Source: Astropecten irregularis
Lineage: Eukaryota; Echinodermata; Asteroidea; Paxillosida; Astropectinidae
DNA: 64,000 bases
Assembly: GCA_963971285.1 (NCBI GenBank)
Contig: OZ020254.1
Span: forward strand, 4,774,001-4,838,000
Direction: 5' to 3'
In this document: positions 31,401-61,400 of the stretch, piece after piece
Numbering within the stretch: position 1 is the first letter of the stretch
How the letters are laid out: every line of letters starts with the position of its first letter
Translations under genes and position numbers: made by a program
Notes under the pieces: model-generated
Told to the model about the DNA's origin: nothing
Databases searched by the model: none
Seen by the model: only the letters and a program-made list of their open reading frames with translations

Positions 31401-34400
31401 CTTGGCTCCCAATTTTTGTGTACAGTGTATAGGCTTGTTGAACATTTTTTACTTTATCGAACAACCACTATAATATTTGACCCCCTTGAAATATTGGTTT
31501 CATGCCTTTCAGATGGTCCTACATTAGTTTTGCAATGTTTATACAAAACAAGAACATCAGTTGACCATGGAGGAAGGTTGAGACAGAGACTGATTAAAAA
31601 AAAAAGACCCATCGCTTGAACCAACCTTTGAATGAGTACAGGGCCCAATTTCATGGAATCCGTTACGGCCTATTTTTGTGCTTACGGGCACTGCTACGCG
31701 TGAAATCTATTTCATGGAATACGTAAGCAAGACTCTCGGTTAGCGAAGAATTTCTAGGGTAACCGTGATCATTTCCTGCTAACGGGGCTGCCGTATGCAT
31801 TCTGCACAAATTCCTTGCTTACCGTTACCAAAAAGGAAACTCTTCCGTGAAATACGCTAACCATAACCAAAAAAATTCTGCTACCGTTAAGTGAAGAATT
31901 TGTGCTAACGGTAACGGATTCCATGAAATTGGGCCCAGGTCTACTTGGATGGGATGGGGCGAGCCTATGGGAGACTCTGTCCCTCTCCCAGGCCTCTTTC
32001 TCCGGCGCTCAGCCCTCCCGTTCATTTGGGCGTAAAACATGCCATCAACCCGGAACCCTCTCAGAGACTCGGCATAGAAAGAGAAAGAAAATTGCTTCAT
32101 GGCTTGTGTCAATATTTGCTCAGTGCCATCAGGCCGTATGACCTGATGGATGCAAGCTCCCTCTGCTCGGTCGATAAGTTTGCTTAAAAATCAGTCCCCC
32201 TCCCTTCCTCCCTCCCCTCCTCTCCCATCACATCATGCTGACAGGACTGTTTGGTGGCCAAATAATGGATTGATTCTCTCTTGCATTTAATGATTTCCTC
32301 CATTCAAGTTACTGGCGATGTCGATAGAATAATATTTTATGAAAGGTTGAGTTTCTGATAAATTGTAGCCAGACCAAAAGGGCCATTTTAAATAATTGCA
32401 GCAGAGACATACAACTAAGACTGAATCACCCAACCTCAAAAACCAATTTTCATCTTTCTTTCAATACACATTATGTGTGTATTGACCACTTTTTCTGGAA
32501 TACTGCAAATTTGTTTTAAAGAATACTCTTTCAATTGGTCTTATTTTCACCAATTTCAGCCCGATTTTGCTTAATTTCTACATGGTGATAGCTAAGACAT
32601 GGCTGTATCACATATCTGAATCTTGAAGTGATAAACAGTTTAATTTTAACATAATGGTTCCTGACAAAGTGTTGTGTTTTTTGGGACACACTGTATATGA
32701 TACATGTGATAAGCCCCGTATGCATGAAATGAGACACATGAGCAAAATTGCATTCTGTAACACAGGAATTGGATTTCCCATTTCACAGAATTAGGCTCAT
32801 AGATAACATTTCACCAGTCACAGCACAGACAATGCAAACCGAAAAGTATAATGTGTCATGCGTGTGTATGATCTGTCAACTGTCATCAATGGCTTTAGAT
32901 TTCCCTACTACTACTTCTGTATGTCAGCAAGACATTAGTCATGATGTAGTCAATGTCTACTTGGTCATTATGTGAACATATCCCCTCCAGGCCATTCTAT
33001 CCAGCATGGCAGTCCGTAGTTTAAAACAGCGGCTTACCATAGACTTGTGCATAACTGTAAGCCTCAGCCAAGTAATTTGGACAGCAATGGGCTCGATTTC
33101 ACCAAACCCTAAGATTAATCTTAAAATGAGTTGTCTGTTCTGTATCTTCTTTGTATTGTGACATCATGCTTAGCAATGGGAGACTTTGGAGAACCGGTCT
33201 TCAAGTCAACAGCACATGCACACACAATTGTGAGCATGTGCGCGTTGTTTTGCGCCTGCGCTGTTGTTTGTGCGCGTGCGCTGTTGACTTGAAGACCGGT
33301 TCTCCAAAGTATCCCATTAGGATTAATTTACACTTAAAATCAATCTTTATATGTGCTTTGTGAAATCGGTCCCATTGGTCTTTTCTTACAGCTTATTTAA
33401 TTTCTCTTCGACTTGTCATTCTGCCAATTTGTGTTTTCTGAAGGGCATTGTTAACATCACTTATCCGTTTTGGAAGTGAAAGTGGTATTAAAATTTATTT
33501 TTCACTTTTTGTCTCAATCTATTTTTTCCTTTAGCATTGTCTGATCCCAAAATCAGCCTGGTCCCAGTCAAGATTGGCTTCCTGATCCTCGCCCACAACA
33601 ATCCCGATGCAGTGGTAAGTATCACCTATCCATCTCTCGTAAACCTTAAAGATGTACGGGTACGATGTAACTGATCTGATACAATGAGAATTTGCAGACA
33701 TTTCTCATGGATTGAGCTGTGATTTTGCTCACAAAACAGCTTTTTTCTCCAAACAAAATGCTGTATCTTTGTGTAGTGTAAGATTCCATGCGCTCATATT
33801 TTTCCTGCCTTGCCATCATCATTAGTTCGTCATCTCCTTGGACTTCTCTTTGCATTTTCGTCCACCACAAAACTCTGTTAGCATCGATCTGTCTACCTTG
33901 AGTCATTCCCCATCTCTCTGCCAACAGAATAAGAGGAGACAGAAGAAAAAAAAGAAGAAATTATAAGCGCGGGACTTAAATGAATTAGCAAAGTTGATTC
34001 GTTGGAAGATATGCAAGCGCAAAGATTAGATTGAAGTAAAAAATGCAGATTTTCCGACGAGAGCTGAAAGTGCATCAGACAACAGTAGCATAGGCCATCT
34101 CCCACCCACCTCCCCTCTTCCCCTACAGCAAGGACTACTCCGTTTGAAATCATTAAAAATGAATTAGAGAGTGTATGTAATCTCGGGAAGGGTTTTTGGC
34201 ACGCCGTCTTGCTGCACGCTGAATTACACTGATTGGGTTTGATATGATTACGAAGAAGGAGCGGGCGGGTTGGACACAACTGACTAGACGCTAGCACTAC
34301 ATGAAGGTTATGGCTGTCTGCATATTGTAAATAAATTCAAAGTGAAATTGTGTAATCTGTTTATAACCAAGCTTGTTAAATATCTAATCGTCTGCTACTT

Positions 34401-40400: not shown

Positions 40401-43400
40401 ACCTAAAATAAACCTCGGCACGTGTACTCAGGTGATGGCAGACTTAGTACTCTGTTGTTCGTTTCACAATTCGAAGGCAGGTGCATAAAACTGCATAAAA
40501 GTGAAGACTAAATCAGTTGGAAGCCGGAGGTTATACACTGTTCAAGCGCAAATCATGTGATTTACATGCACATGTAGCTGGGGGTATTCAATTTCTTTAA
40601 GTCAGTGGACTGGAAATACTGAGTGTGCATTTGCAATGAAATCAGGTCAGTACTAGATGCACTGTTATCAAAATCCATCTGCAAAATGCTTATTCTGTAC
40701 ATTTTCTGATAATGCATTACAATAACAGGAGACACTGGTTTTAACATGGTTGATGACTGCTCAAAATTCATGTGGTAATTTGATTGGAAATGCAATATGC
40801 TGGTGACCAATTACCCACCTGATAGATTCAAGAACAGATACATATTGACAATTACAGTGTATGAGTAAATACTTGAGTGTACTTGATTCTGCAGATAAGT
40901 ACACATTTTTTATTTTACAGGTACTTGTATATCAGATGCTATTTCTGCTGGCAGTGTCGGTATAATAGCACCAATGCATAATTCACTGGCAATAACAGTT
41001 AAACAAAAAACAGAAAATGATATGGATGTTACTGGATGTACCTGAAAGGTTTGCTGTAATCAAAGCTCATATTAAGTTAAATCCATTCATATTGTCAACC
41101 TGTCAACCTGTCTATCATTGTTGGTGCAAAAAAATATTGTATATAGAAAAAGGAGGTATATTTTAGAACCATAATTTAACACCCCTCTTTTTGCGACAAA
41201 AAACCTTACTTACGTCACATGCAGAACGCCACGCAGAGTATACTGTGTGGCGAGCTTATACTAGTTCCGTAGGTGACGTCACTCGCTATTGTTGTGTGGA
41301 TCGGTTCCAAGGGGGACTTTTTGGGGGGGCTGGGCGTACATGTAGTGATTTTGTAACTTTTTGGTCAAAATTAAGCACTTACATAAACATACAAATTTAT
41401 AAAGTCATCAATTATGTACAATGTATTTAAGCAATAATTTTAATGCACTTTCATCCCTTTCACAATTTTGATTACAGTAAACCTTTAAAATGGCTACAAG
41501 GTACAATTGAATTATGTGCGCAATGCGTACATGTACATGCAAAAATGCTGTCTAGGAACTTGAGGGCACTCTGTACCAGCAGTCTACGCATAATAATAAG
41601 AGAATAAAAGTACAATAACCCCCACCTTACATTGTGCCAACATTGTTAGCATATGATAGTGATACATTTTTCATTTGTTAAAGAACAAGATGTGGAAATG
41701 TTGCTGTCAAAGTATTTTCCATTGGAATTTTTGCCAAGTTGTTGCACTTAAAGGTAGTATCATACTTTGGCTTTTATCAAAGAAATACAGATTCATGGGC
41801 AAATTTGTTTAAGACAGATAGAATAAGTTGTCTGTGAAAATTTCAGTCCCATACGGTGCCCACTTTTTGAGAAAACAGTGAAAAACAGCCAAGTCTTTTC
41901 TCTTCTATTTTTGATTAAAAAAAAAATCAAAAAGATTTTCGGTTGTTGTTTGACTAATTTCTGGATTAATACACCATTTCAGGCGGAACAATTTTAATGG
42001 CAGGTTTCTACTATCATCATCTTCATACCTTGAAAGTTATATGTAAATCTGTAAACATTTCTGTTTTGATCTCTTACCAAAGTATGATACTACCTTTAAG
42101 GGCAATAACAAGGGGCACCAAAATAGATTATATACTTATTACTGGTGGTGTGAAGTTCACACCCAGTTTTTAGAAGCTACAAACTTGCCAATAAGGCCAG
42201 CAATTGTCACGCACGTTTGAGCGTGAACTGTTTGACCTACATGATTAGGATACAAATTTGGTCAACCTTGAAATTGGGTGAAAATGCAGGGGACTTATTC
42301 ATCTATCAATATCCGTCCCTAGATAGTTGACGAGGGCATATATTTGCCTGTATCTTCAGACACCAGACATTCTGAGTATTGCTGCTGTCAAGCCAGCTGA
42401 TCAGATAAATGATATATTACGTGGTAAATGACACATATTTCAATGTGCCCCCATGTGATACTGATATACCCTGCCTGGTTGGATAACCCTGCAGGAATTC
42501 ACTGACTGCTAAACATGACTTCTTGACATACTAGAACTGCGCTGCCGACAATAAACCCAACATTAACTTCCCCCCGTCAGGCCAATTGTGTACGCCGCTG
42601 CTGCTGCTGCGCTGGTAATGAAAAAGAAAATTTGTGGGGCACAGAGGAAAAGGATGTGGCTTATAAACAGGAAGATGCTGCTTAGTGCTGTTTGATGTAT
42701 TAAAGTGCAGAAAGCTCAAAAATAGTCCTGGATCAAATTCATGAGCTTAAAGGTCATTTCATACTTTGGTTTTTTGTCAAAGGAATAGGCAAATATATCA
42801 AGAAAGATACAGTAACAGTCATCTGTGAAATTCCCATCCCATACGATGCAAACTTTTTGAGAAAACAGAGAAAAAGTCCATGGTATTTTAAATATCTTTT
42901 CACCATTTGTTTTTGGTCTTTTGGGTTAAACGCTCGAGCTACATGTATTTATAGAATACGCCCTTTGTATCGACAGCTATAGTTATCCGGATGTTCGGAC
43001 AAATTTCACAATGTTTACGTGTAAGTTAATGGGGCAACGTGCGACTTGTTTGTCCGAACATCTGCATGTGAAATCACGAGCGCGGAGCCCTATTAGTAAC
43101 AGTCGCACAGATCTTTCAAGTTGGCTGGAAACCGTTTTTGCCAAGCAATACAACTCTATATAATTTGCCACTTTTGAAAATCTAACAGAAGCCGAGTACT
43201 ATGCAGGCTGCATTAGATGATGGGGTTTGGCCTGGTTATGGAGTTGCTGTTCAGCACAGCTTTTCCTGTGCTAAGCAATTTTTTGTGCTAAGCAGCTCTA
43301 TGAAATTGGTCCCTGGTGTTTTGTTCTTAAGCACAGCTTTTCCTGTGCTAAGCAGATTGTGTGCACAAGGAATGCACCCCTCGTTGAGTTACAGTAGTAG

Positions 43401-46400
43401 TTGATTAGGCCTTCTGGTGGGCATTTGACTTGATGGATCCCATGTGCCAAGAAGATATATAACATCCTGATTGTTCCTGAATCCTGGGGTCGATTCCACC
43501 AAACTCATGGTAACTTCAATCAATCCTAGGGCTTATGACGCATTGCAGCCCGACATTCATGTAGGATACGATGGGTTATCATTCCTAACTCATGTTACGA
43601 TTGATTGTAGGGCTTGGTGAAATCAACCCCTGCTCTGCATAGGGTCCTCTCTAATGCACCAAAGCCTTTTTCTCTTCTAAATATCAAAACTAATGAATTG
43701 ATGTATAATTTTCATTCCCCAAAATGACAGAATTTTGAGATTGGCACAAATTTGACTTCACATTCCTTGAATTTGATGCTCCAATTTGTAACAATGCGAA
43801 GATTTTGCCTCTTTTTTGAGAATTTTTTTTTCATGGTGAATCACAACATAGGCTAGTCCACTAATGGTCCCATTAGGGTTCATATTGTGAATAGGTGAAC
43901 ATCTTCCATTATTTGCATCCACACAGTATACTCCCACAATTCAATTGTATTACCAGGTATTAAATGCCTAAAGGTCCTGGGGTTGATTTTACCAAACTCA
44001 ACGTAACTTCGTATCAAATGTAGGACTTATGATGCATTGCAGCCCTACGTACATGTAGAATATGATGGGTTATCCCTTCTTAACTCATTACGATTGATCA
44101 TAGGGCTTCTTGAATTCAACCCCAGACTATAGATTGCAAGTATGAAGTCTTGACCGCTTACTGAAGCTTTGCTTGACCCTGGTGTCCTCAGTATCCAAAC
44201 TTAAATCAGCTGAACCTATTATTAAACAGCAGTTGATATCTTTTCATCAGTGCCCCACCAGTTTCTTAATTAAACCCTATCCAACACACACATAATGCCC
44301 AAATCCATTTTTGGTGGTGCATGGTTATGACGGACTCTCAACAACGGACGTCAAGCTTGTCCGTTTGGGGCTTAACGGCCGGACTCCACCTACCTGAAGG
44401 CCAAAGAAATATCTCACAGGGATATATCAAAGTACTTTTTATTTGTACAATTTGCCACGGAGCTGGTGTTTTGAAAGTTGGATCAAAATGTCATATGATT
44501 TATCATTATTATTGTTACAAATATTTTATCTTTTCTGTGTCTTGTTTTTTCTATTTTCAGGAGCAATTGTTAAAGGCCGTCTACAGACCGTACTTTTATT
44601 ATGTTATTCACGTGGATTACAGAGCCGATGGAGTCAGACAGGTAATTTTTATAGACTGAACCATAGTTTGTCTTAGAATATTAGAACGTTAGCGTATTTC
44701 ATGAAAACATTTTAGGAAAGAAAGTCTATTTTAGTTTGTTGTGCCCATTTATTTCATTTTTCTGGTGTTCTCTGCGCACATGTAGTATTAATTTCTTTTC
44801 TACTTGCAAGAAATGGTTATTCAATGTGACTAACAAATACCGCTGTGGTAGCACTATTCTATACAAGATGTCTTTAACTTTAAGGAGATCAAGCAGTTCT
44901 CACACGGAACTGGGGCACAGAGTCGGTGCTTTATACCGGGATTTAAATATAGGGCGTTCAAATTTGAATTGCAAGTGACAAAAGGGGCCATGCAAATATT
45001 TGATTTTCAGTCAATTTACATGTAAATTACATCTGGGCCTGGATCAGTTAGTGTAAGATCAGTGTGCGTGTGTGATTTGAGAGCTAATGCAGGAACAACT
45101 GCAGCCTCTCAGTACTGAACCGAAAACTGACTCGTCATGGTATAAAAATAGGACTTGTGAGGTACCTTGTTCACAGCAAGAAAATCATTGCCTCTGGTCC
45201 TATGACGTCGAGAAACCAGTCCATGATCCACTGAATCAAGACTAAATCTGGATCGGTCGGTCGGAAGGAGTGCCTTGACCACAGCAAGGCAATTAAAATA
45301 TATCGCTCTTTAGTGTCCCCTTTTTATGTAATTGTTGATTCTATTTGTTTCATTGCTCCTAATTATTGTCATTAAGTAATTGCCAGTTGTACTTGTTTTA
45401 TCGATTGAAGTTGTTTTTATTCAATTGTCAATGGGGGACTTTGGAGAACCGGTTTTCTAGTCAACAGCGCACGCATGCACGCGCAAAAGAATGTGTGCAT
45501 GCTCACATTTGCGTTTGCGTGCGCTGATGACTTGAAGACCAGTTCTCTATTTGTCTCCTATTGTATCTATTTTTACCCCCAAATTGCCATTTTTGTATGT
45601 ATTTGCCATTTTCACATTTGGATTATGCCCCCAGTTTAGCTGATTGGCTACAGAGTCATTGTTTTTGATAAACCAGCAGTAATAAAACTTTCGCACCTAT
45701 TTGTATGGTCATGATGGTGTGGAGACACCAGGTGTGGTTGTCTAGAACAAGACTGATAGTCTTCCATCAGGTCACACAAAGGAGTAGAAAGGTCTCCTGA
45801 CATGTAGGTCACAGCGAGGCAGCAACGATTTTATACAACCACTTCTTTTCTAAAAAAAAAAATGTCAGAATTGGGAAATATCTATTTTCCACTGGAAAAT
45901 TCTAAGGAACAAAATGAATGATAATAAAATTTTTCTTTTGACGTTCAAAACCTTTGACATTTTCTGGGAGAATTGAAAATGGACGTTGAAGTTTTCTGTT
46001 TGTTTGATATTGACTGTGTCTGTAGGCCATCTCAGAGCGAGCGGGCAGAATTGGGCTTCCAAGCAAAAACGTTCGAGTACTTCCCAAGGAGCGATCGTTT
46101 GTGGCATCATGGGGATCTTATGACATCGTCCGAGCTGAGCTAGAGGTACGTGTTTTGTTTGTTTGTCCGTCATTGATGTTCTTGCATCGCTAGAAATAGG
46201 TGAAAGCTCCCTGTGGGCCGTTTGCTTGTTTTGAAATGTCATTGAAAGATTTATTCAGAAGACAAACATCCCATCAAAATGTCAAAAATGTTTCCATTTA
46301 CTTTTATTTCAAGATATCACATGAATTAAACAAGAAATCCAATAGCATGTTGACTACGAATAATTATATACAAATCCACATGTCGGTAAAAAATAAGTTG

Positions 46401-49400: not shown

Positions 49401-52400
49401 TGGCATCTGCCACTTGTGACCACCCTGGAGAAGTCATCTTACCCTCGTGAAAACAAGACTCTGTTAACGGTCAGTTGGAGAGACTTCTTTCACTGTCTCC
49501 TAGTTTCTTGAGACGGTTAAGCAAACTATTTTGAATGCATGCATCTGAGTCTGGGAGGAAGACTATGCTTGCCTCGCCCTTCTGAACTTACCATCTACAG
49601 TATAAGAATCTAGGCCTACTGACTTATGTTTGAAATTCTTTATAGTAAAGATTTTTCTGAGATTTATATCAGACAGAGTTGGTGCTTCAATGTCGTTTTT
49701 TCGTTCACTCCAGTTTTTAATTAAATATTCATTCAAGCTTGAAAAGTAGCAAGCGCCCATAAATGGATTGTTCCACAAGCTTTCTCGTTTTGAAATGCCA
49801 TTAGTTCTGTAATGTTATACATGTAGGTAGCGTGTGATCTACCACCCCCACACTTCAAAATTGTCAAGAGCACGATCCAAACATCTAATATCGCCGGTTT
49901 GTCACTTAAGCATTCAGCCTCCTTCGCTGGACGTCCCTACATCCGGCTACTTCACAACGTGGCTAAAACATCGTGGTCAACTCAAGCGTGTCTTTACTGC
50001 TCTGTCAAGCGCAAGACAGCCGACATCCCTATCACTTAGAAAGCATAACACAAGAGAAGTCCTTGCGATGCACGCCATCAACAAGGATATATTCTCCGAG
50101 GGACTAGAGCCTGGTTGCTGATATCGTAGATCAGTTCCGACAATTCCTGGGTTGTCCTGATTACTAAGAAGGTTTTATTCTATAGGAAGATCACATATGT
50201 TGTCACTTGGCCTACATATACTTCAGTGTGCACACAAAGACATCACTCTTAAAAGCGAAATAATTTTGGGCAGGGGAAATTTTGGATTTATTTTTTCATT
50301 TTCCATGAATAATTACATGGTCACTTTGTCACATGATTGTAAAGGGCATGTTCTTGCCTAGCAACCTCCAGCTTTGGAAATCTCTGGTGCCTTTATGCCA
50401 TCCTCATCCATTATGAAAGTGCTCAGTGCTCAGGGGTCGATTTCATGAAGACTTATGATCGATAATTTCTCGAATTACAAATGATAACCCGTATCCTACG
50501 TAGAGCTGCATCATTAATCCTACGGTTGATAGTATGCTATGATGAGTTTGGTGAAATCAACCCCTGGGGCCAATTTCATGAAGCTGCTAAGCTCAGAAAA
50601 ATTTGCTTAGCACAAAAATGTCTTACCCAATAAAATAAACTACCATTAAAAATTCCATTTGATATTCATGGTCAGCAAACAACAGCCAAAGAACAATCAC
50701 AAGCGATACACAACACCTGGAAATGTGGTTGTTAAACCTGTTTTTTTATTAATACAAGTAATAAACTGCTGCAAACTGCTTATCAGCCAAAATAATGACC
50801 TGATGATAATTATCCTAGCAGGATGCTAGCTGTTTTTATTAAGACAGAAATTTCATGGTTAGCAAATTTTTGCGCTAAGCAGGGCTGTGAAATTGGCCAC
50901 TGGTCGTCCTTTGCTTGAATGGGAGACTTTGGAGAACCAGTCTTCTAGTCAACAGCGCACGCACACGCAAAACAACGCGCCCATGCTCACAATTGCGTGC
51001 GCGTGCGCTGTTGACTTGAAGACCGGTTCTCAAAAGTCTCCCATTGTGTTGCTATACCATACATGTAGCTTGCCCTATTATGTGATATAGTGTAATGTAG
51101 GTAGACAAGAGAATTCATCTTGTCAGTGCACATCTATAATCAGTGATGTCAGTACATTGGCTGATTGAACTCTCAACGCCTGACACATTCGATCCCATCT
51201 TGCAGTTGTTCATCAGTTGATAGACATCAGTCAGTCAGTCACTTCAGTCACATGAAGTGCAAGTGTTTAATTAGCTCAGCAACAGCCACCTATTACATGC
51301 AAGATTGCAAAACCGATTGATCGGTCCTTGTTCATTGCAAAACACTGTATGAGGACTAATGAGAACATTATTAGATTCCCCTTCCTACAATAAAACAAAT
51401 ATTTCAATTTTGCTATTTACTTGGCTCTCAAGGTTTTTGTATTCGAAGTTTTAGATTGATATATCATAAGTGTATATCTTATTCATTTACAATTTAATGT
51501 GTTGATTATAGGCACTGCACACAGATTGATGTTATTTTCATTTTTGCTGCCCAGTCTAATCTCAGATGAAGCTACGTACATCATGTAGAACCGTTTCCTT
51601 TAATATTCCTAATACTGTAATTATAATAATATATATCATTATTGTTATTATGTTATTTTTTCAAATTACCAGGTAGAGCCAAAACAGCAGAGAACCAGTT
51701 ACAAGCAATGCATATTGTATACAAATTTAGTTGGTAACCCGAGTTCTCTAACAGGACGTGTGTTTGCTGAGCAGCTGAATAGATGTAGTAATCCAGTCGT
51801 ATTCCAATGCCATTGATGGTTTTTCTATTTGATCTCTTGCCCTAGGGCTTCGAGGAGCTTCTCCGGATGGGAGCGTGGGACTTTGTCATCAATCTGAGCG
51901 GATCCGATCTCCCAATCCGTAATGTGGATGATGTGGCGGCCATGTTGGCATCTGCCAGAGGTTAGTGAATGACAGGTGCACTGCGGGATTAGGGCCTCGT
52001 GCATTGTGCGATCTGAGCCAGATGCATTGTGGGATTGGAGCCTGCTGCAGTGGGATCAGTGGCCGATTTCACAAAGGCTTTTCGATCATTGCTAAAGCCC
52101 AAATCCATTGCTTAATGGAAAATTGCCATGCAAAGTAGCGATTGATTTTCCGTTAAGCTATGGATTTGAGCTTAGCGATGGATTTGAGCTTAGCGATAAT
52201 TGCAAAACATTAGTGAAATCGGCCCCTGGGCCCAGTATTTCATTATTCTGGTAAATTCCAATTGATGCGAATGTTGAGCCTCGTGGGCAAATTTACTGAA
52301 AGCAGCATGGAATCCTCATAATGCCATACAAGTTAGAAATCCTATGTCACATTCTGTGGACTTGACACGCTTCAAAATACACTTTGCTTGGGCCTTTTTC

Positions 52401-55400
52401 TACCGGTAAACTTTGACCTCCAAAATCTTGCAGTTCTGGGAGATAGATTTTAAAAATGGATAAGTTTAGAGAAAGGGCAGTCCAAGAGTTTGCGGTATTT
52501 GGATTTCAATCGTCAAATAACCACAAGGAAAACTGACTGAATTTCAGTTTGGGATTGACGGTTTCTTTCCTTCTTGTCACAAGGTTTCAACTTCATGCGG
52601 CAGAATGGGAATTGGAATGACCGGTCAGACAAGCCGACTGATTTCACCGTCTGGTACGGATGCGGTGGTCACGTCTACAATGTGTCCACTCGAGGCAGAA
52701 GGCCAACTTGGACCGATATGCACAGCGCATCACAGTGGGCAGTGTTCTCAAGGTGAGGGAAATTGTGGGATGGTTACTGGTTTGGTTTTCATTTTTTCAG
52801 TAGAGATTTCTTGAAACAATGCTGAAAGGCTAATGTATGGACAGGTAGATGGTGCACTTTTCTAGGGCAATATTACAAGGCAATATTGACTTATTTGGTG
52901 ACAGTTGGATGACTATTTCATGATTAAATCTTGCCAATACCTTTTAAGGTACCATCATACTTTGGTAGCATACTGAAACAGAAATCTTCACAGATTTATA
53001 TGGTTTAAAGATGGTGATGGTATAAACATATCGTTCAGGTGTTTCTGCCTGAAATGCTGTATTATCAAGAAAAAAGTAAAACCAATGACCAAAAACATCT
53101 GTGATCTTTAAAAGATAAAAAATAACGGTGAAAAAATATCAAATAAATGCCATGGGCATTTTTCACTGCTTTGGCAAAAACAGAGGGCACCGTATTGGAC
53201 TGGAGATTTCACAGATGACTGTTACTGTATCTTCCTTGATATTTTAGCTCATAAATCTGTATTTCTTTGACAAAAACCAAAGCATGATATTACCTTTAAT
53301 ATCCTTGATGCTGTGTTTTTGTTTGTGTCTTACAGGGACTTAATTGACTTGGTGGTCGGCCACAACCGAGGTCCTAAGATGGACAGCATTCAGTTCTTCA
53401 GTATGACCAGTATTATTCCCGATGAATCCTTCATGGCTTCCATGCTTAAGATATCACAATACAGGTAAGCTGTGCTATTAGTACACAAGTCTTTCTCATC
53501 ATCATTGTGGGTTGCTAGTGTCCTAGTGGTCTGGCATGTTGTACTCAAGGTCTTGCCGTCAATCTTTAGATTGTGGGTTCGAATCCAGCCATGTGCTAAT
53601 GGTGCTTGAGTCCTTGAGCAAGACACTCTGTCACATATTGCTCCTCTTCACCCAGGTGTAAATGGGTACCTGCGAGGGTAGAGATGGCTTTGTGCTTGAT
53701 TAGCCCTTGTGCGCTTAACAGTAAGCTGGGGCTGTATACTCCCCAGGAGTTGAGATTGTTTCAGGAATGTATGTGGGGCCTGATGACCAGGAATAATAAT
53801 GGATATAAAAACCTGCTATTATTATTATCATCGCAAATGCCTTGACTGTGTACAAATGCCGGGCAGACGAAAGCCTGTTTCATACTTCATGCATGCTTGC
53901 AAAATGAAGCGAATTGTCCTGTGTCACAATAAAAACAACACATATTTGCTTTGCTATTTACAGGAAGTTATGAAGCTGGCTTAAATATATTGATTTGCTT
54001 TCTCTTTTTTGCTTTAATTCTGAAATAAAAACGTGATTTTTATTACTCCTTTTCTTCTGATCAGGGAGACTTACATCCACTACAACCTCCATCACTTGAA
54101 GTCATTTGCTCGGAAAGATGATCGCGGTTTCTGTCGACACACGGAGGATATTGATTTTTGTGGTCAGGTACGTTTTTATGCAAATGCCCCGTAAACGTTC
54201 GGCATCTCCTCCTGAATTCAGCGACATTATATATCGGTGTATCTTAGAGCCACGTCTCCCGAGCCGTCTCAGGTTTCGACGGACACAGGGAGGTAGCACC
54301 TCAAGTTTCATGTGCCATATGCATGCCCATTACTAAAGGGGGCCATGATGGGTTTCTTATTATCGTGAGGACATAAAAGCATGCAGATGCACGTTTTCAA
54401 ATGGTTAATAATGACTCAAGTTGTCGCATAGGACACTTTCAGTAGACCAAGCTGAAGACGAGGCTTGAGATTTAATAACGAGGTTAGCACAATTAATGCG
54501 CGAGTGTCTTTAACGAGGAATGATCTTGGTCAGCAAAGAATTCATTGGTCAGAAAATTTGACTACTTAAACCTCCAGTCCCATTCTTTGTCATAGAATTT
54601 GGACAGATATTGTTTTAAAGGTAGTACCATACTTTGGTAAGAAACCAAAACAGAAATGTTCACAGATTTAAGTATAACTTACAGGGTATGAAGATGGTGG
54701 TGATAGAAATATTTCTGCCTGAAATGGTGTATTTGTCCAGAAACTAGTAAAACAACGACCGAAAATCTTGTTGATCTTTTAAAAGATCAAAAATAAAAAA
54801 TAAAAGACTTAAGAAATACAGTAGCCGTTTTCACTGTTTTCTCAAAAGGTGGGCAAAGTACGGGACTGAAATTTTCACAGATGACTGTTACTGTATATTC
54901 CTTGATATTTTTGCCCATGAATCTGTATTTCTTTGACAAAAACCAAAGTATGATATTACCTTTAAGTCAGCACGACCAATATTGATCCATATAATATTAC
55001 CATCTTCCTGAAAAAACGTTCGGAACTTGCTGAGAATGATGAATACCTGAAAAATATTGTCCCTCTTGAAGAGGTGAAAGCATACAGTGTTTTCTTTTTC
55101 ATTGTACAGGGTCCGGGGACATTTGAGACTCAGGATATTGACTCTATAGGCAATCTGGCTCATAGCCTCTTTTTTGCGAGGAAATTTGACGGTGCTGTGA
55201 ACAATCCAGTTCGCATGTTTGCCCTGGAGCTGAGCTCTGGAAAGTACTACGTCGATCTGCTCAAGAATCGGATTACGGAGGAATTTGTGAGGTATGTGAT
55301 GAATTTTGTAGCCGTTTTTTGTGGTTGTTCGTGGAAATCAGTGCATGGCCAATGTCCACACCTATATGTGAGCTAACGGCGGTAAAATTCTGAGAAACCA

Positions 55401-58400
55401 GGGGTCGATTTCACAAAAATCATTGTAACCTACTATCAAGTGTAGGACTTTTGATGCGCCGCATCCCCCTACGTAGGATAGGCCCCATACGATGGGTTAT
55501 CCTTGGTTGCTCAAGTTACAATCGGTTGTTGGGCTTCTTGAAATTGACCCCAGGCCCTTACAGTGAATCAAATCATCAATTTTTTGTGGCATATATTGGA
55601 CTGGAAGAGGGTATCAAGTCCACATCAATTAATGCCTGTTGTAAGGAGAAACCAGTCCTTCACACTGAAAGAAGATGGATGGTTTCTTCGCAGTTTAAAT
55701 CAGATTCGGGTGCCTAGTCCATAGCAAGGTGGCAAATTTCCCAAACCAAAAACGCCCATGCAGCCACTTTCACAGAAATGCTTAGGATGTGAGTTTGCTT
55801 TAGGGCTGTGCATTCACGGGTAATTTTGGACCCGAGTACCCTTTGCCCAAACGGGCGGGTACCCGGGTACCCGCGATATAATATAAAACATAAGAAATTA
55901 AGAACCCGGAAGTATGTTGCGTAATGGCCGTTGGTGAGTACCGTATCGGGGCTCCGAGCCAGGCGTGCTAAAAAATTACCAGACCTTCCCCAAAACACCC
56001 CGACCTTTAGCGGATTTCGGCTTTTTTTAGGGGTGCCGAATTTTAGTTTACGCTATTTCTACCGACATGACAGGCCAAGCAAAAGTTAGCGTGATCTTTT
56101 TTCCGACATCGAACACCGACATCAAACACGATTGTCAGGGTTGTTATTTCGTTGCGTGTTCCCCGTAAAATATTCTGACCACCCCGTAAATCGCATTTTC
56201 CTGATCAGCTAAATCTTACTTGAATTTCAGTCGGTAATTTTGTCCAGTTGGCCAATTAGAAGAAACACACTTTTCACGTACATGTGCTAGATCTTAAGAA
56301 ATAACGTGAGAAAAATTACTAGGGCGACAAACGCATTATTAATACGTAATCACGATGCATTGTGCACATGGTCAGCATGGTAATCCCGAATGTTCCATGA
56401 CTGGTATCCGCCCCACACACGGCCACGCGTAATAGCCACGATGTCAAAACAACGTGCACCAGTCTCGACCACGTGTGGGCAGGAAGACTACATACGACTG
56501 TGTGTGTGCACGGTGTAGGCTCGGTCGGTTCCGATGGTCTGCCGTACGCGGTAGGATTTTTGGTCGGTACATGTAGGCCTATATCGCGGCCGGGGTGCGT
56601 CGCGTTGTCGGGTACCGTAGATCGCGGCCGGACTGCGTCGATAATTGTGGCTCGCGCGCTGCCGGCTTCGGTACAGATTTGCGGGAAATAATCTGCTTTT
56701 GACATTGCAAAAAACTACCAATTTTGAAGGTCAGTGATGTATTATATGAAAAAGGGCATGGTTGTTATTTTTTTACGGGTAATAGAATCGAAAAAATGGA
56801 GCCGGGTACTCGATGGTTTCGGTCGGGTTTCGAGTACCCGGGTAGAACGCACAGCCCTAGTTTGCTTATTAAGAATCATTCTTCTGCTTAGCAAAAACAC
56901 AGATAATGAGCTACAATGCCATGTCACAGACAACATTACCTGTGTCAGGAATTCAGCTAAGCACAAAAGTGCATGAAACTTGAAACAAACATTCCTTTTT
57001 CCGGCCTGCTAAACAGCTGCTGCAAGATCTGGCATCAAAATCATACTGCTCTCACATAATGCCCAGGGGCTGGGCAGAGATATATTGATCACGCCAATGT
57101 CAATAATTGCGCTGGTGTCATTTTTCCGGGGGTAGTAAATCGTGGCCGTGTTAACACACATCATATGCATGTTGGAGGCTCGTGCAAAGAGGCTTAAGGA
57201 CCGGTGTGTCCGTACCCCTTGGGATCTGATCAAGTAACGGATCCATCATGAAGCGTCATCGTTGAGATGACCAGAGGCTATGCAGGTGAAGGGGGGTTGG
57301 GAGTAAGGGCCAGGGTTTGTCCATAATCTGTAAAAGTGTCCGGATAAGCTGCTTAGAATTTAATTAAAATCACCGGGAGAGTTCAGGGAGCAGTTTTCTT
57401 TGTATTCAACCATAAAAATATTCTAAACTATAGGAAAGTAGTTGTTGATGGCTTGTACATGATTGCTCTCAAAATGGATGGCCCCGTCTTTCATTCTTTG
57501 CACATGTATGCACTTGGGACACATCGATCCCTGCTAATGGTGGACTGCATCTAGCAGGGCCTCTGTCTTCTCAAAGCTGCAGCAGAGTACTCCGGGGAAC
57601 TGCTGTCAAACAATAAAATTTGCAGAGTTTTCTAGACTAAGAGGCCTTTGAGTGAATGCCAGACATACAAATCCAAATCAGGCACCTGACATCCACGCTC
57701 TTATCCAATTTTGTTGTTTTTTAAATTCTGATCCGTCCTCCCGAGGAACGAATTGAGGAAGATGAATCTGTTTTGTTTGATTTGGTACAGGCAACTTGTG
57801 AACCTTGCCCTACAGTCTGAGTACGGCGCCCTCTATACCAAGGAGGTTGAACTGGAAGAGATACGTAAGCTACGTATCTTCCCTCAGGTCCTACCCCTTG
57901 ATCCTTGCTGCCAGCCCATCTACAGCACCAAGAACCGTGTCATCAGGGACCTACGATATTGGATCGACTTCTCTGTGGTCAGTTTTCTTTTTTAGTCATT
58001 TGACCGGCTTCCTTCAAAATGGGGTCCAAAAGTTGCACAACTTAATAAATAATATCATCTGGATTCATAGAGCGCCAAATTGTTTAAGGATAGTTAGCGC
58101 TGAAGAAAGAAAGAAGAACAACCAGAAAAAGTACAAGAGAAGACAACTAGGACGTACGACCAGCTACCATGTCTTGAAAAAGATGAGTCTTAAGAGCCCT
58201 CTTGGACACAGCTGAAATGAGCTGGAAAAAAGAGCTGGCAATAGCTTATGATACTTGAAACACTATCCTTCTCTGTCCTCAGGAACTTTGGCCATTTCAG
58301 AGATTCCTAATTGGATTAGCAAATGTGGAACACTGATACATTATTTCATAGGTCTTGGGTTCAATTCCTGGTTCTTTTCAGTGGGTTCTGTATGTGTATA

Positions 58401-61400
58401 AATTTCATTTGGTTACTACATGTATTTTGATTGGATTGTAGTTTTCCCCAATGCTTCATTTCTTAAAACAGCTGAGTTTCATCACAAATTTTCTTTGCCT
58501 TCCCTTGATTTCATGATTTTTTTTCAGATTGAAGTTAAGACTGGAGAATCAAGAGTCCTCCGAGCTTCCTTTGTGAGTGAATCAGATATCTTTATTTGCC
58601 TCCTAACTTTATCTTATTGAGAGAAGAGAGATTTTAATTCCCCGTCGAAGGACGATAATTTGCTTTTCATAAATCATAATTGTGACATTTACCCCTAGTT
58701 TCTGTCAACAAATCACAAACTGACAAATGGCTTAATATTAAAAACCAAATTTAGACGTTGTATTTTTATCATTCTTGCATCATAACTTTCACTACCCGAA
58801 AATGAAGATGGAAGAGTAATTTACAGTGATGAGATTTCTCAGATTACAATCTGATATCAGATTTTTTTTGTTTTGGATTTCAGATTTTTTTCCTCACAGG
58901 CTGTGTACAAAAGTATAGGAGATTTTCAGATTTCAGACTTTTTATGCTCCCTGTCAGCAGTTTTCAGACATTTTTATCTTTGGTGAATCTCATCCCTGAA
59001 TTTATGACAGGGGACTTTTCATTTTGCTTGTAGAAAATCGCATCATAGGATTTTCTTTGCTGTAGGTACTGACAATGTCCGTGTGATTGATTTGCCTTCA
59101 AAAGATCTTTTAAAAGGTTACTTTTTTACTGTAGGTGTAAGTGAAGACTGAGCACGCAGGCAAATATATCAAAGTGACAAATTACTGCTTGGATGCCCAG
59201 ACAGTTTGTAATCATTGATGGGAATTTACCAGCAATTTTTGTAATCATTGCCAGGAATGGACAAGCTTTCTTCGTAATCGCTGTTTGGAGTGAAGAGCCA
59301 GTTTTTGTAATAAATGTTGAAATGGGATTTGGAGTTTAGTAGTGAATGACGAGTAGATTTTTTGTCGTTTTGTTTTTTAATCAGTGCTCAGCTTAAACAT
59401 GGATTTATTGGTTCCTTGTTGATTCTGCCCTTTTTAATTGATATTGTTTTGTATATTGAAACCGTAAGAGGTTAATAATTTGGGAAAACAAGTATTTGTT
59501 TCATGTATGTACATCTCATATGAATGTTTGCAGAAAATTGTGGGTAGCCGTGTCATTCTATCTAAATGACAAGGGAAATTAGGGACAGCACTTAAAACTA
59601 GGAGAGTAACTGTATAAGCTTTTGTAGTAACAGCTACTTCATCAGAATTGTGGGTAGCCGTGTCATTCTATCTAAATGACAATGAAAATTAGGGTAGCAC
59701 TTAAAGACTAACTAGGAGAATAAATACATAAGCTTTTGTAGTAACAGCTACTTCATCAGATGTTTGCCTCTCCATTACATTATACTTGCATTATTTATTT
59801 ATTTAGCAAATGCAAAGTCCTTCAGCCAAGCAGTTGCCTCCTGGTTTGCTGCATGGAGGGCAACTTGAATGAATATTGGTATATAATGTTTTGAAGAATT
59901 AATCTCATTGAACCAGATGCTTTTTTTTTATCAGAGTGTTTTGTGATGAGATGATGATTCTTTTGATGACATTTTCACTATAGGTACCACAAAGTCGAAC
60001 GCAGTGTTTCAGCCGGGGTCACATCAAGGGATTGTATCTGACCACCAAGCCAGCTGATTCAGGGTAGGCCTCTCCTGAAACTTGGATCTCTCTCAGTCTG
60101 TTTAGAAAATAACCCTGCTTGATTATATGTGCTACTGCCAGATTGCTTGGTGCTTGCAAGTGGACACATGTAGTACCCCCTCATCTTTGGGAAAAAAAAG
60201 CTTGCTTGCAAATTGAAAAAAGAAAGAAATTCAATAGAAAATTCAGGTGTAGGACTTCCATAGTTGATATACTTTTTGTTTCTTTCTTGTTAAACACTTT
60301 TTTCTTATATCATGTTTTTCTATCTCTTTTTCAATTTGGGTTTATGTTTTTATTTCTTTGTCTCCTGCATTGTTCTTTTTCCTACTCCCTCAACCCCACA
60401 CCCTGATTCCTTAATTTCCCCTCTTTGGGGGTTTTCTTTTTCTCTTTTTCGTGGTGTTTCTGGGGTTTATTTATGATGCCTTTATAATTCTGTGCGTTGC
60501 TAGGAAAACTCAAGTGAAAGGCGGACTGCCACTTCCCACTGAAGAAGCCGGAGGTGCGACGCTATATATGGCTTCCTTCATTAATATTAATGAGAAGATT
60601 CAGAAGGCACCAACCTGCAATGAGGTGGAGGGACTTCCTGGTAAGCTGTTGTGGTTTGTATGGTGTGGGTTTAAAGGTAGTATCATACTTTGGTAAGAGA
60701 CCAAAACAGAAATGTTCACAGATTTACCTTTAACTTAGAGGGTATAAAGATGGTGCTGGTAGAAACATACAGTTATAATGTTTCCCCCTGAAATGGTGTA
60801 TTTATCCAGAAATTAGTCAAACAACGACCACAAATCTTTTAAAAGATCAAAAATAAAAGAGAAAAGACTTGAAAGATATTGTGGGCACCGTATGGGACTG
60901 AAATTTTCACAGATGACTGTTACTGTATCTGTCTTGATATTTTTGCCCATGAATCTGTATTTCTTTGATAAAAACCAAAGTATGATATTACCTTTAATAA
61001 GTACCGGTAGGCTTGTTGGCTTTACATGGCAGAGCCAGCCTGGGGCAGTTCTCATAAAGCTATATTAAGCATATTTCCGTGCTGCATGTACAAAAGATTT
61101 TGCTGATAAAGCTTGAGGTTATTCCAAGGTCATGGTCGTTGCACATGTTGTTAGCAGTTGGTGGCCATGTTGTATAAAGCATGTCTCTTCCAGTGCTGAG
61201 GGTTTGCAGTGCTGTTCTGGTTCTGTATCCCTAGTTAAGTGAATGGTAGGTCAGGATACCCCTTGTCTGCTTCAAATGTATCTAGGTGGCTCATGGTCAG
61301 CCTTTTATCTCTCTCTCTCTCTCTCTCTTTGTCATTCCTTCCCGATTCCTGATGTGCAGATGACAGCTTTGAAGGCCGCTCTCCGGACAGCTTCTCATAC

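Follow-up and report, generated by a model that had tools for sequence, protein, structure and literature searches.

Xylosyltransferases (XYLT) initiate the heparan and chondroitin sulfate chains of animals. They are type II membrane proteins with one N-terminal membrane helix, and their choice of donor and acceptor depends on a handful of residues. We analysed a relative of these enzymes encoded by Astropecten irregularis, a member of the Asteroidea, in a 64,000-nucleotide stretch of contig OZ020254.1 (assembly GCA_963971285.1, positions 4,774,001 to 4,838,000; hereafter the window), in which glutamine stands where human XYLT1 has the aspartate of its GGSDW motif, Asp494. We read the gene as an intact, old XYLT paralogue with a Gln-type pocket, whose product is probably an active glycosyltransferase of other acceptor or donor preference; judged from sequence, we give this a probability of about 0.6. 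A sister enzyme with a prokaryote-type residue in an otherwise retained pocket would be a natural test of the role of Asp494. It would also bear on how the initiation of glycosaminoglycan (GAG) chains arose from older enzymes of glycosyltransferase family 14 (GT14), and it cautions against automatically naming such genes xylosyltransferases.

The XYLT1 structure provides the frame for comparison. Asp494 and Glu529 make polar contact with the xylose of uridine diphosphate (UDP)-xylose, Trp392 and Trp495 make apolar contact with it, Arg598-Lys599 lie on the diphosphate, and Glu529 is the presumed base acting on the acceptor serine (Briggs and Hohenester 2018, PMC5992326). Because it touches the xylose, Asp494 is a donor-site residue; an earlier reading of the window, the original prediction, had referred to a proposal that it acts at the acceptor serine, and this does not agree with the structure. 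Mutation of Asp494 is reported to cause a dramatic drop in XYLT1 activity, and removal of the hairpin 563–572 to abolish it (PMC5992326). The flap to which this hairpin belongs carries two disulfides, 561–574 and 563–572. Engineering of XYLT1 has identified Trp392, Leu525 and Leu526 as gatekeepers, replacement of Leu526 by Gly or Ala letting larger sugars in (PMC13038410). More widely, the GT14 activities described comprise transfer of N-acetylglucosamine (GlcNAc), xylose and glucuronic acid, and COSMC is a described dead paralogue (PMC7185993, PMC7866395, PMC7359372). The available portions of these last three papers make no mention of the window protein itself, and a literature search for echinoderm XYLT paralogues, limited to result listings, found none on point.

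Gene model and active-site residues

The window gene lies on the contig that we number C18 in the 475.7 Mb genome. Its model has 17 in-frame exons and 859 open codons and runs from position 33535 to about 2.6 kb past the end of the window, where the stop codon comes after a hydrophobic tail. Since the frame is open across all 17 exons, the match to XYLT1 is not a chance one. The exon that holds the Gln codon (exon D) has AG and GT splice borders and continues the frame of its neighbours. The features of the model are the following, in window positions unless C18 is given:

33535..33614, + strand, first modelled exon; AG/GT sites, in frame with exon A
44561..44641, + strand, exon A; EQLLKAVYRPYFYYVIHVD..., aligns to the IHVD strand of XYLT1
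46026..46145, + strand, exon B; SWGS, holds the Trp equivalent to XYLT1 Trp392
51846..51960, + strand, exon C; WDFVINLSGSDLPIR, alone gives a Pfam Branch match
52584..52752, + strand, exon D; SASQW motif, fifth exon of the model
52733..52735, + strand, Gln codon CAG at the position of XYLT1 Asp494, located by the alignments
53336..53464, + strand, exon E; SIIPDES, with the Glu529 equivalent, Ile at 525 and 526 and Asp at 528
54065..54167, + strand, exon F; active-site flap CRHTEDIDFC, Cys563–Cys572 equivalents present, Cys561 and Cys574 replaced
55110..55291, + strand, exon G; FFARKFDGAVN, with the equivalents of the diphosphate-binding Arg598-Lys599
57791..57977, + strand, exon H; region downstream of the GT-A domain
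58528..58572, + strand, exon I; placed by in-frame splicing
59984..60063, + strand, exon J; in the model
60504..60640, + strand, exon K; in the model
61360..61532, + strand, exon L; occupies the place of the Xylo_C domain, Xylo_C homology not demonstrated
63075..63252, + strand, exon M; holds PMEPGLWTLVLF, similar by eye only to PLRPGxWxVKxL of Xylo_C
63908..64000, + strand, first part of exon N; continues to C18:4838508 as an acidic linker
C18:4839796-4839867 and 4840495-4840624, last two exons (O and P), beyond the window; two predicted membrane helices and the stop codon

The spliced protein matches Pfam PF02485 (Branch) at 79.4 bits against a curated cut-off of 23.4. It has the GT14 signature, a catalytic Glu529 with a basic Arg598-Lys599 pair instead of DxD (XYLT1 numbering here and below). 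In a phmmer search of PDB sequences, human XYLT1 comes first (E 2e-30) and mouse C2GnT, the other solved relative, second (1.5e-10). The Gln of SASQW, encoded by CAG, stands opposite human XYLT1 Asp494 in this search (6ej7, E 2e-30). The motif is free of alignment gaps, the nearest gap lying about ten residues upstream, and three MAFFT alignments agree on the placement. This bears out the gap-free alignment of SASQW to GGSDW described in the original prediction, whose residue numbers match our model at an offset of 92. The residues it listed as retained, D137 (HVD), W174, D206 and E310, are seen in the XYLT1 alignment as the HVD Asp, Trp392, the INLSxxD Asp and Glu529, respectively; Trp495, Arg598 and Lys599 are present as well. 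The donor site that it called intact is so at most of its residues and not at 494, where Gln takes the place of Asp.

Beside the catalytic Glu, the window protein has Ile at 525 and 526 and Asp at 528, where XYLT has Leu at 526 and Ala at 528. With Trp392 and the two Ile in place, the donor pocket should therefore stay tight. In the flap, the Cys563–Cys572 hairpin is kept at the same 10-residue length, together with Asp570, and the second cysteine pair is gone, Cys561 being replaced by Gly and Cys574 by Gln. These flap residues were read from the phmmer alignment and the smaller MAFFT alignment; the large prokaryotic alignment, which leaves most of the window flap unaligned, was set aside for this purpose.

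Position 494 across prokaryotic GT14 enzymes

We compared position 494 in two sets of prokaryotic GT14 sequences. The first came from a scan of bacterial and archaeal genomes with a bacterial query, from which the best 80 of 199 relatives were taken. Gln occupies position 494 in 77 of them, with Arg in one and a gap in two; the counts at the other sites are Ile526 in 74, Asp528 in 76, Glu529 in 73, Arg598 in 76 and Lys599 in 73. The second set, 55 further loci each taken in its best-matching frame, came from a Pfam search in which matches were found in 17 of 299 genomes of Pseudomonadota (the phylum of Caulobacter), 18 of 198 of Bacteroidota (the phylum of Sphingobacterium) and 2 of 192 of a Gracilibacteria phylum. 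Here Gln occupies position 494 in 27 of 29 Pseudomonadota, 11 of 25 Bacteroidota and the single Gracilibacteria sequence, and Asp in 0 of 55; Glu529 is present in 54, with one gap. When the two sets are pooled, Gln is found in 116 of 135 sequences and Asp in none, with two gaps, and nearly all share the base and the diphosphate pair. The pooled 135 hold at least one identical pair (L089 and L170), and in L177, L187 and L188 an insertion beside position 494 makes the letter alignment-dependent. The three proteins tested from the animal's own genome that resemble core-2/I-branching GlcNAc transferases (GCNT) have Ala.

Within this sample, Asp is a speciality of XYLT and Gln is the common state. 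The statement in the original prediction that other GT14 enzymes differ at this residue is upheld by Gln in most prokaryotes sampled and by Ala in the GCNT-like proteins. Its view of Gln as deviant or as pointing to weak activity is not upheld, Gln being the commonest residue in the prokaryotic enzymes examined. Because Gln is ordinary there, the window protein would keep, or have regained, the common pocket of the family. The explanation is reversed: rather than an essential Asp having been lost, the family's common residue has apparently been kept or regained. We reject the view of Gln as a loss-of-function oddity, since it is in the majority among the prokaryotic sequences examined.

The resemblance extends beyond the one position. 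Most of the prokaryotic enzymes examined, with motifs G-S/G-Q-W and I-x-D-E-S, share Gln494, Ile526, Asp528, Glu529 and Arg598-Lys599 with the window protein. They differ from it in the flap, the hairpin being absent from both of the two sequences that align with the window flap in register; columns 570–575 are gapped in 80 of 80, in an alignment that gaps most of the window flap too. For one bacterial enzyme of the Gln type, an AlphaFold model (alignment of 22 rows, all 22 with Gln; predicted local distance difference test score 84) has nine XYLT1 chains as its nearest solved folds, at ranks 1–9, with C2GnT close behind.

Two further features of the bacterial genes were seen. In the Bacteroidota sequences L171 and L172, Lys at the Asp494 site (GGKW) is combined with an XYLT-like LLPAES, so that the two active-site motifs vary independently. 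GT14 matches occur in 16 further Pseudomonadota genomes, 14 of which have two (L141–L169), in open frames that are mostly about 530 to 770 codons long and so far beyond the length of a glycosyltransferase domain. NCBIfam, scanned with one of the bacterial relatives, gave no useful name, and a literature search on characterised bacterial GT14 enzymes, again limited to result listings, found none on point.

Relatives in the same genome and age of the duplication

The catalytic domain of the window protein is 29% identical to each of human and echinoderm XYLT and 19–21% identical to the three GCNT-like proteins of its own genome. A canonical XYLT is encoded in the same genome on the minus strand of contig C11, where six exon matches are 48 to 73% identical to human XYLT1. 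This gene has GGSDW, LLPAES, ARKF and all four flap cysteines, and its Xylo_C domain is matched at 5.6e-54. Given a separate canonical GGSDW gene, the window gene is therefore a paralogue, as the original prediction had called it; the search for such a gene was one of the checks that it named. The window gene as the sole XYLT of the genome is ruled out by the same finding. Membership of the GCNT group is ruled out by the donor-site residues and by a separate GCNT clade. GCNTs share the family fold and the catalytic Glu with the window protein, whereas all three from this genome have Ala at 494, Tyr at Trp392 and Trp495, and Asn at Arg598.

The two XYLT-like genes are far apart in sequence and in structure. 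A search of the genome with the window gene returns strong matches only to its own exons, the canonical XYLT and the GCNTs appearing at E 0.005 or worse. In XYLT1 numbering, its introns lie at about 366, 403, 444, 500, 542 and 564–574, and those of the canonical gene at about 362, 430, 457, 529 and 584, with the last border not pinned down. None of the mapped introns coincides, the closest pair being about four residues apart.

We built a tree of 58 rows, including 15 of the best 80 prokaryotic sequences (16 were picked, of which one was too short), 12 of 24 correctly framed Pseudomonadota sequences, 23 of 25 from Bacteroidota, and L195. The window gene joins human and echinoderm XYLT at 99/85, and those two join each other at 100/99. 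Removal of the motif and flap columns leaves the grouping of the window gene with XYLT at 93/77 (57 rows). GCNTs form a separate clade at 100/100. Together, the tree and the intron differences favour, and do not prove, a duplication before echinoderms and vertebrates diverged. An origin by horizontal transfer from bacteria is not favoured, in view of the 17 exons, the flap hairpin common to XYLT and the placement with XYLT in the tree.

The GT14 family is also represented in this genome by ten long single-frame GCNT-like genes (L001–L008, L025 and L026; contigs C12 and C17). With six of them on C12 at 3.02–3.41 Mb and two at 11.54 Mb, they form a tandem expansion of enzymes of the core-2 type. 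The mitochondrial COI gene on contig C168 follows the echinoderm code: AAA stands for Asn at four of four aligned sites, and AGA stands for Ser at two of three.

C-terminal region, predicted activity and alternatives

Beyond the catalytic domain, the likeness to XYLT fades. Pfam and PDB searches gave no match for the roughly 300 residues that follow it, and Xylo_C has no Pfam match in the window protein up to E 10 (5.6e-54 in the canonical gene). By eye, a short collinear stretch, VDP ... PxxPGxW, is similar to Xylo_C. An acidic linker then leads to hydrophobic stretches of membrane-helix length at residues 795–827 and 831–859, as judged by hydropathy alone. With XYLT1 and XYLT2 the window protein thus shares the GT-A domain, Trp392, Trp495, Glu529, Arg598-Lys599, the Cys563–Cys572 flap hairpin and Asp570. 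It differs from them in having Gln for Asp494, in being without Cys561 and Cys574, in having no detectable Xylo_C, in its two predicted C-terminal membrane helices and in introns unlike those of the canonical gene of its own genome.

From these features we predict the activity, donor, acceptor and topology of the window protein. It would be a metal-independent, inverting GT14 glycosyltransferase of the secretory pathway, with Glu529 as the base and Arg598-Lys599 holding the UDP diphosphate. Its narrow donor pocket (Trp392, Ile525 and Ile526) would favour a small sugar such as xylose, in the Gln pocket common to the family that it has kept or returned to. On the acceptor side, the hairpin retains its whole length with a single cysteine pair, the Xylo_C lobe has apparently diverged or been replaced, and the protein appears to end in a membrane hairpin. 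Given these three features, it probably acts on something other than the standard GAG attachment site. The suggestion in the original prediction that Gln would permit another donor or acceptor preference is supported as a possibility.

A bolder extension is tentative and on the whole doubtful. The gene may stand for a second old animal lineage of the XYLT fold, which echinoderms have kept and vertebrates have lost. Its enzymes would have the Gln-type donor pocket of bacteria and a membrane hairpin at the C terminus, and would start a non-GAG protein O-glycan or use a donor other than UDP-xylose. If so, the enzyme that starts GAG chains would have arisen at the step marked by the Asp of GGSDW.

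Several observations weigh against the reading of the gene as an intact, active paralogue with a Gln-type pocket. XYLT1 is reported to lose most of its activity when Asp494 is mutated, so Gln could inactivate an enzyme that is otherwise like XYLT. The branch to the window gene is long, at 1.74 in the full tree and 2.5 once the motif and flap columns are removed; such a length agrees with relaxed constraint and lowers the certainty of the placement. Grouping the two echinoderm genes as a clade costs 28.9 log-likelihood units, and the approximately unbiased (AU) test does not formally reject it (P value 0.061). The set of the best 80 is biased toward its query, because the query is itself a Gln enzyme, and in the Bacteroidota sample Gln reaches only 11 of 25 and Ile526 1 of 25. 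A pairwise alignment to Xylo_C gives a score equalled by 167 of 2,000 shuffles, which leaves homology unsupported. Finally, our view of the window gene comes from the genomic sequence of one species.

The dramatic loss of activity in Asp494 mutants (PMC5992326), the missing flap cysteine pair and the long branch would also suit a dead or weak paralogue retained as a chaperone or regulator. COSMC, an inactive GT-A paralogue that serves T-synthase, is a precedent (PMC7185993). We nevertheless consider this unlikely. COSMC is described as having lost motifs (PMC7185993), whereas the window gene has the base, the diphosphate pair and both donor-site tryptophans. In the prokaryotic GT14 sequences sampled, moreover, Gln is the norm (116 of 135), and the base and diphosphate pair are the same in nearly all of them.

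The long branch, and an AU test in which the clade of two echinoderm genes is not quite rejected, are likewise what a recent, fast-evolving echinoderm XYLT duplicate with Gln by chance would show. This is quite unlikely given the pairing of canonical echinoderm and human XYLT at 100/99 with the window gene outside, and the log-likelihood difference of 28.9. No mapped intron is shared, though in one case the two lie only about four residues from each other, and a border of the canonical gene is not pinned down.

An ordinary peptide O-xylosyltransferase, redundant with the canonical enzyme and with Gln as a neutral substitute for Asp, would accord with a pocket kept xylose-sized by Trp392, Ile525/526 and the hairpin, and with the grouping with XYLT in the tree. 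It is decidedly unlikely: XYLT1 needs Asp494 by the published account (PMC5992326), the genome already has a canonical XYLT, and the window protein is without a Xylo_C match and has a different C terminus with two predicted membrane helices. An artefact, whether a sequencing error in the codon or a joining of exons from different genes, is highly improbable despite some weak coding scores, a 5' end that was not found and a model made from genomic DNA alone, since Asp to Gln takes at least two base changes, exon D is open with good splice sites, and exons A to G are collinear with XYLT1.

The weak coding scores are those of exon E (1.5), exon I (0.7) and the last two exons, O and P (−3.6 and 2.1); O and P were placed by their splice signals and phase and because they are unique in the genome. 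Exons upstream of 33535 were sought and not found; the exon at 33535..33614 is itself the top phase-0 donor against GT14 N-terminal segments, with a score of 33 and the best match elsewhere at 24.

Two kinds of repeat lie in the introns. In the intron between exons L and M, about 39 copies of a 35-base unit form a minisatellite (61545-62922) with a higher-order unit of 461 bases. It is open over long stretches in all three forward frames and is therefore listed as long false open reading frames. A dispersed repeat occurs in several introns (about 41755-42100, 52950-53300, 54620-54965 and 60670-61000); its copies have, by eye, similar ends near ACTTTGGTAAGAAACCAAAACAGAAAT and AAAGTATGATATTACCTTTAA, and it resembles a short inverted-repeat element.
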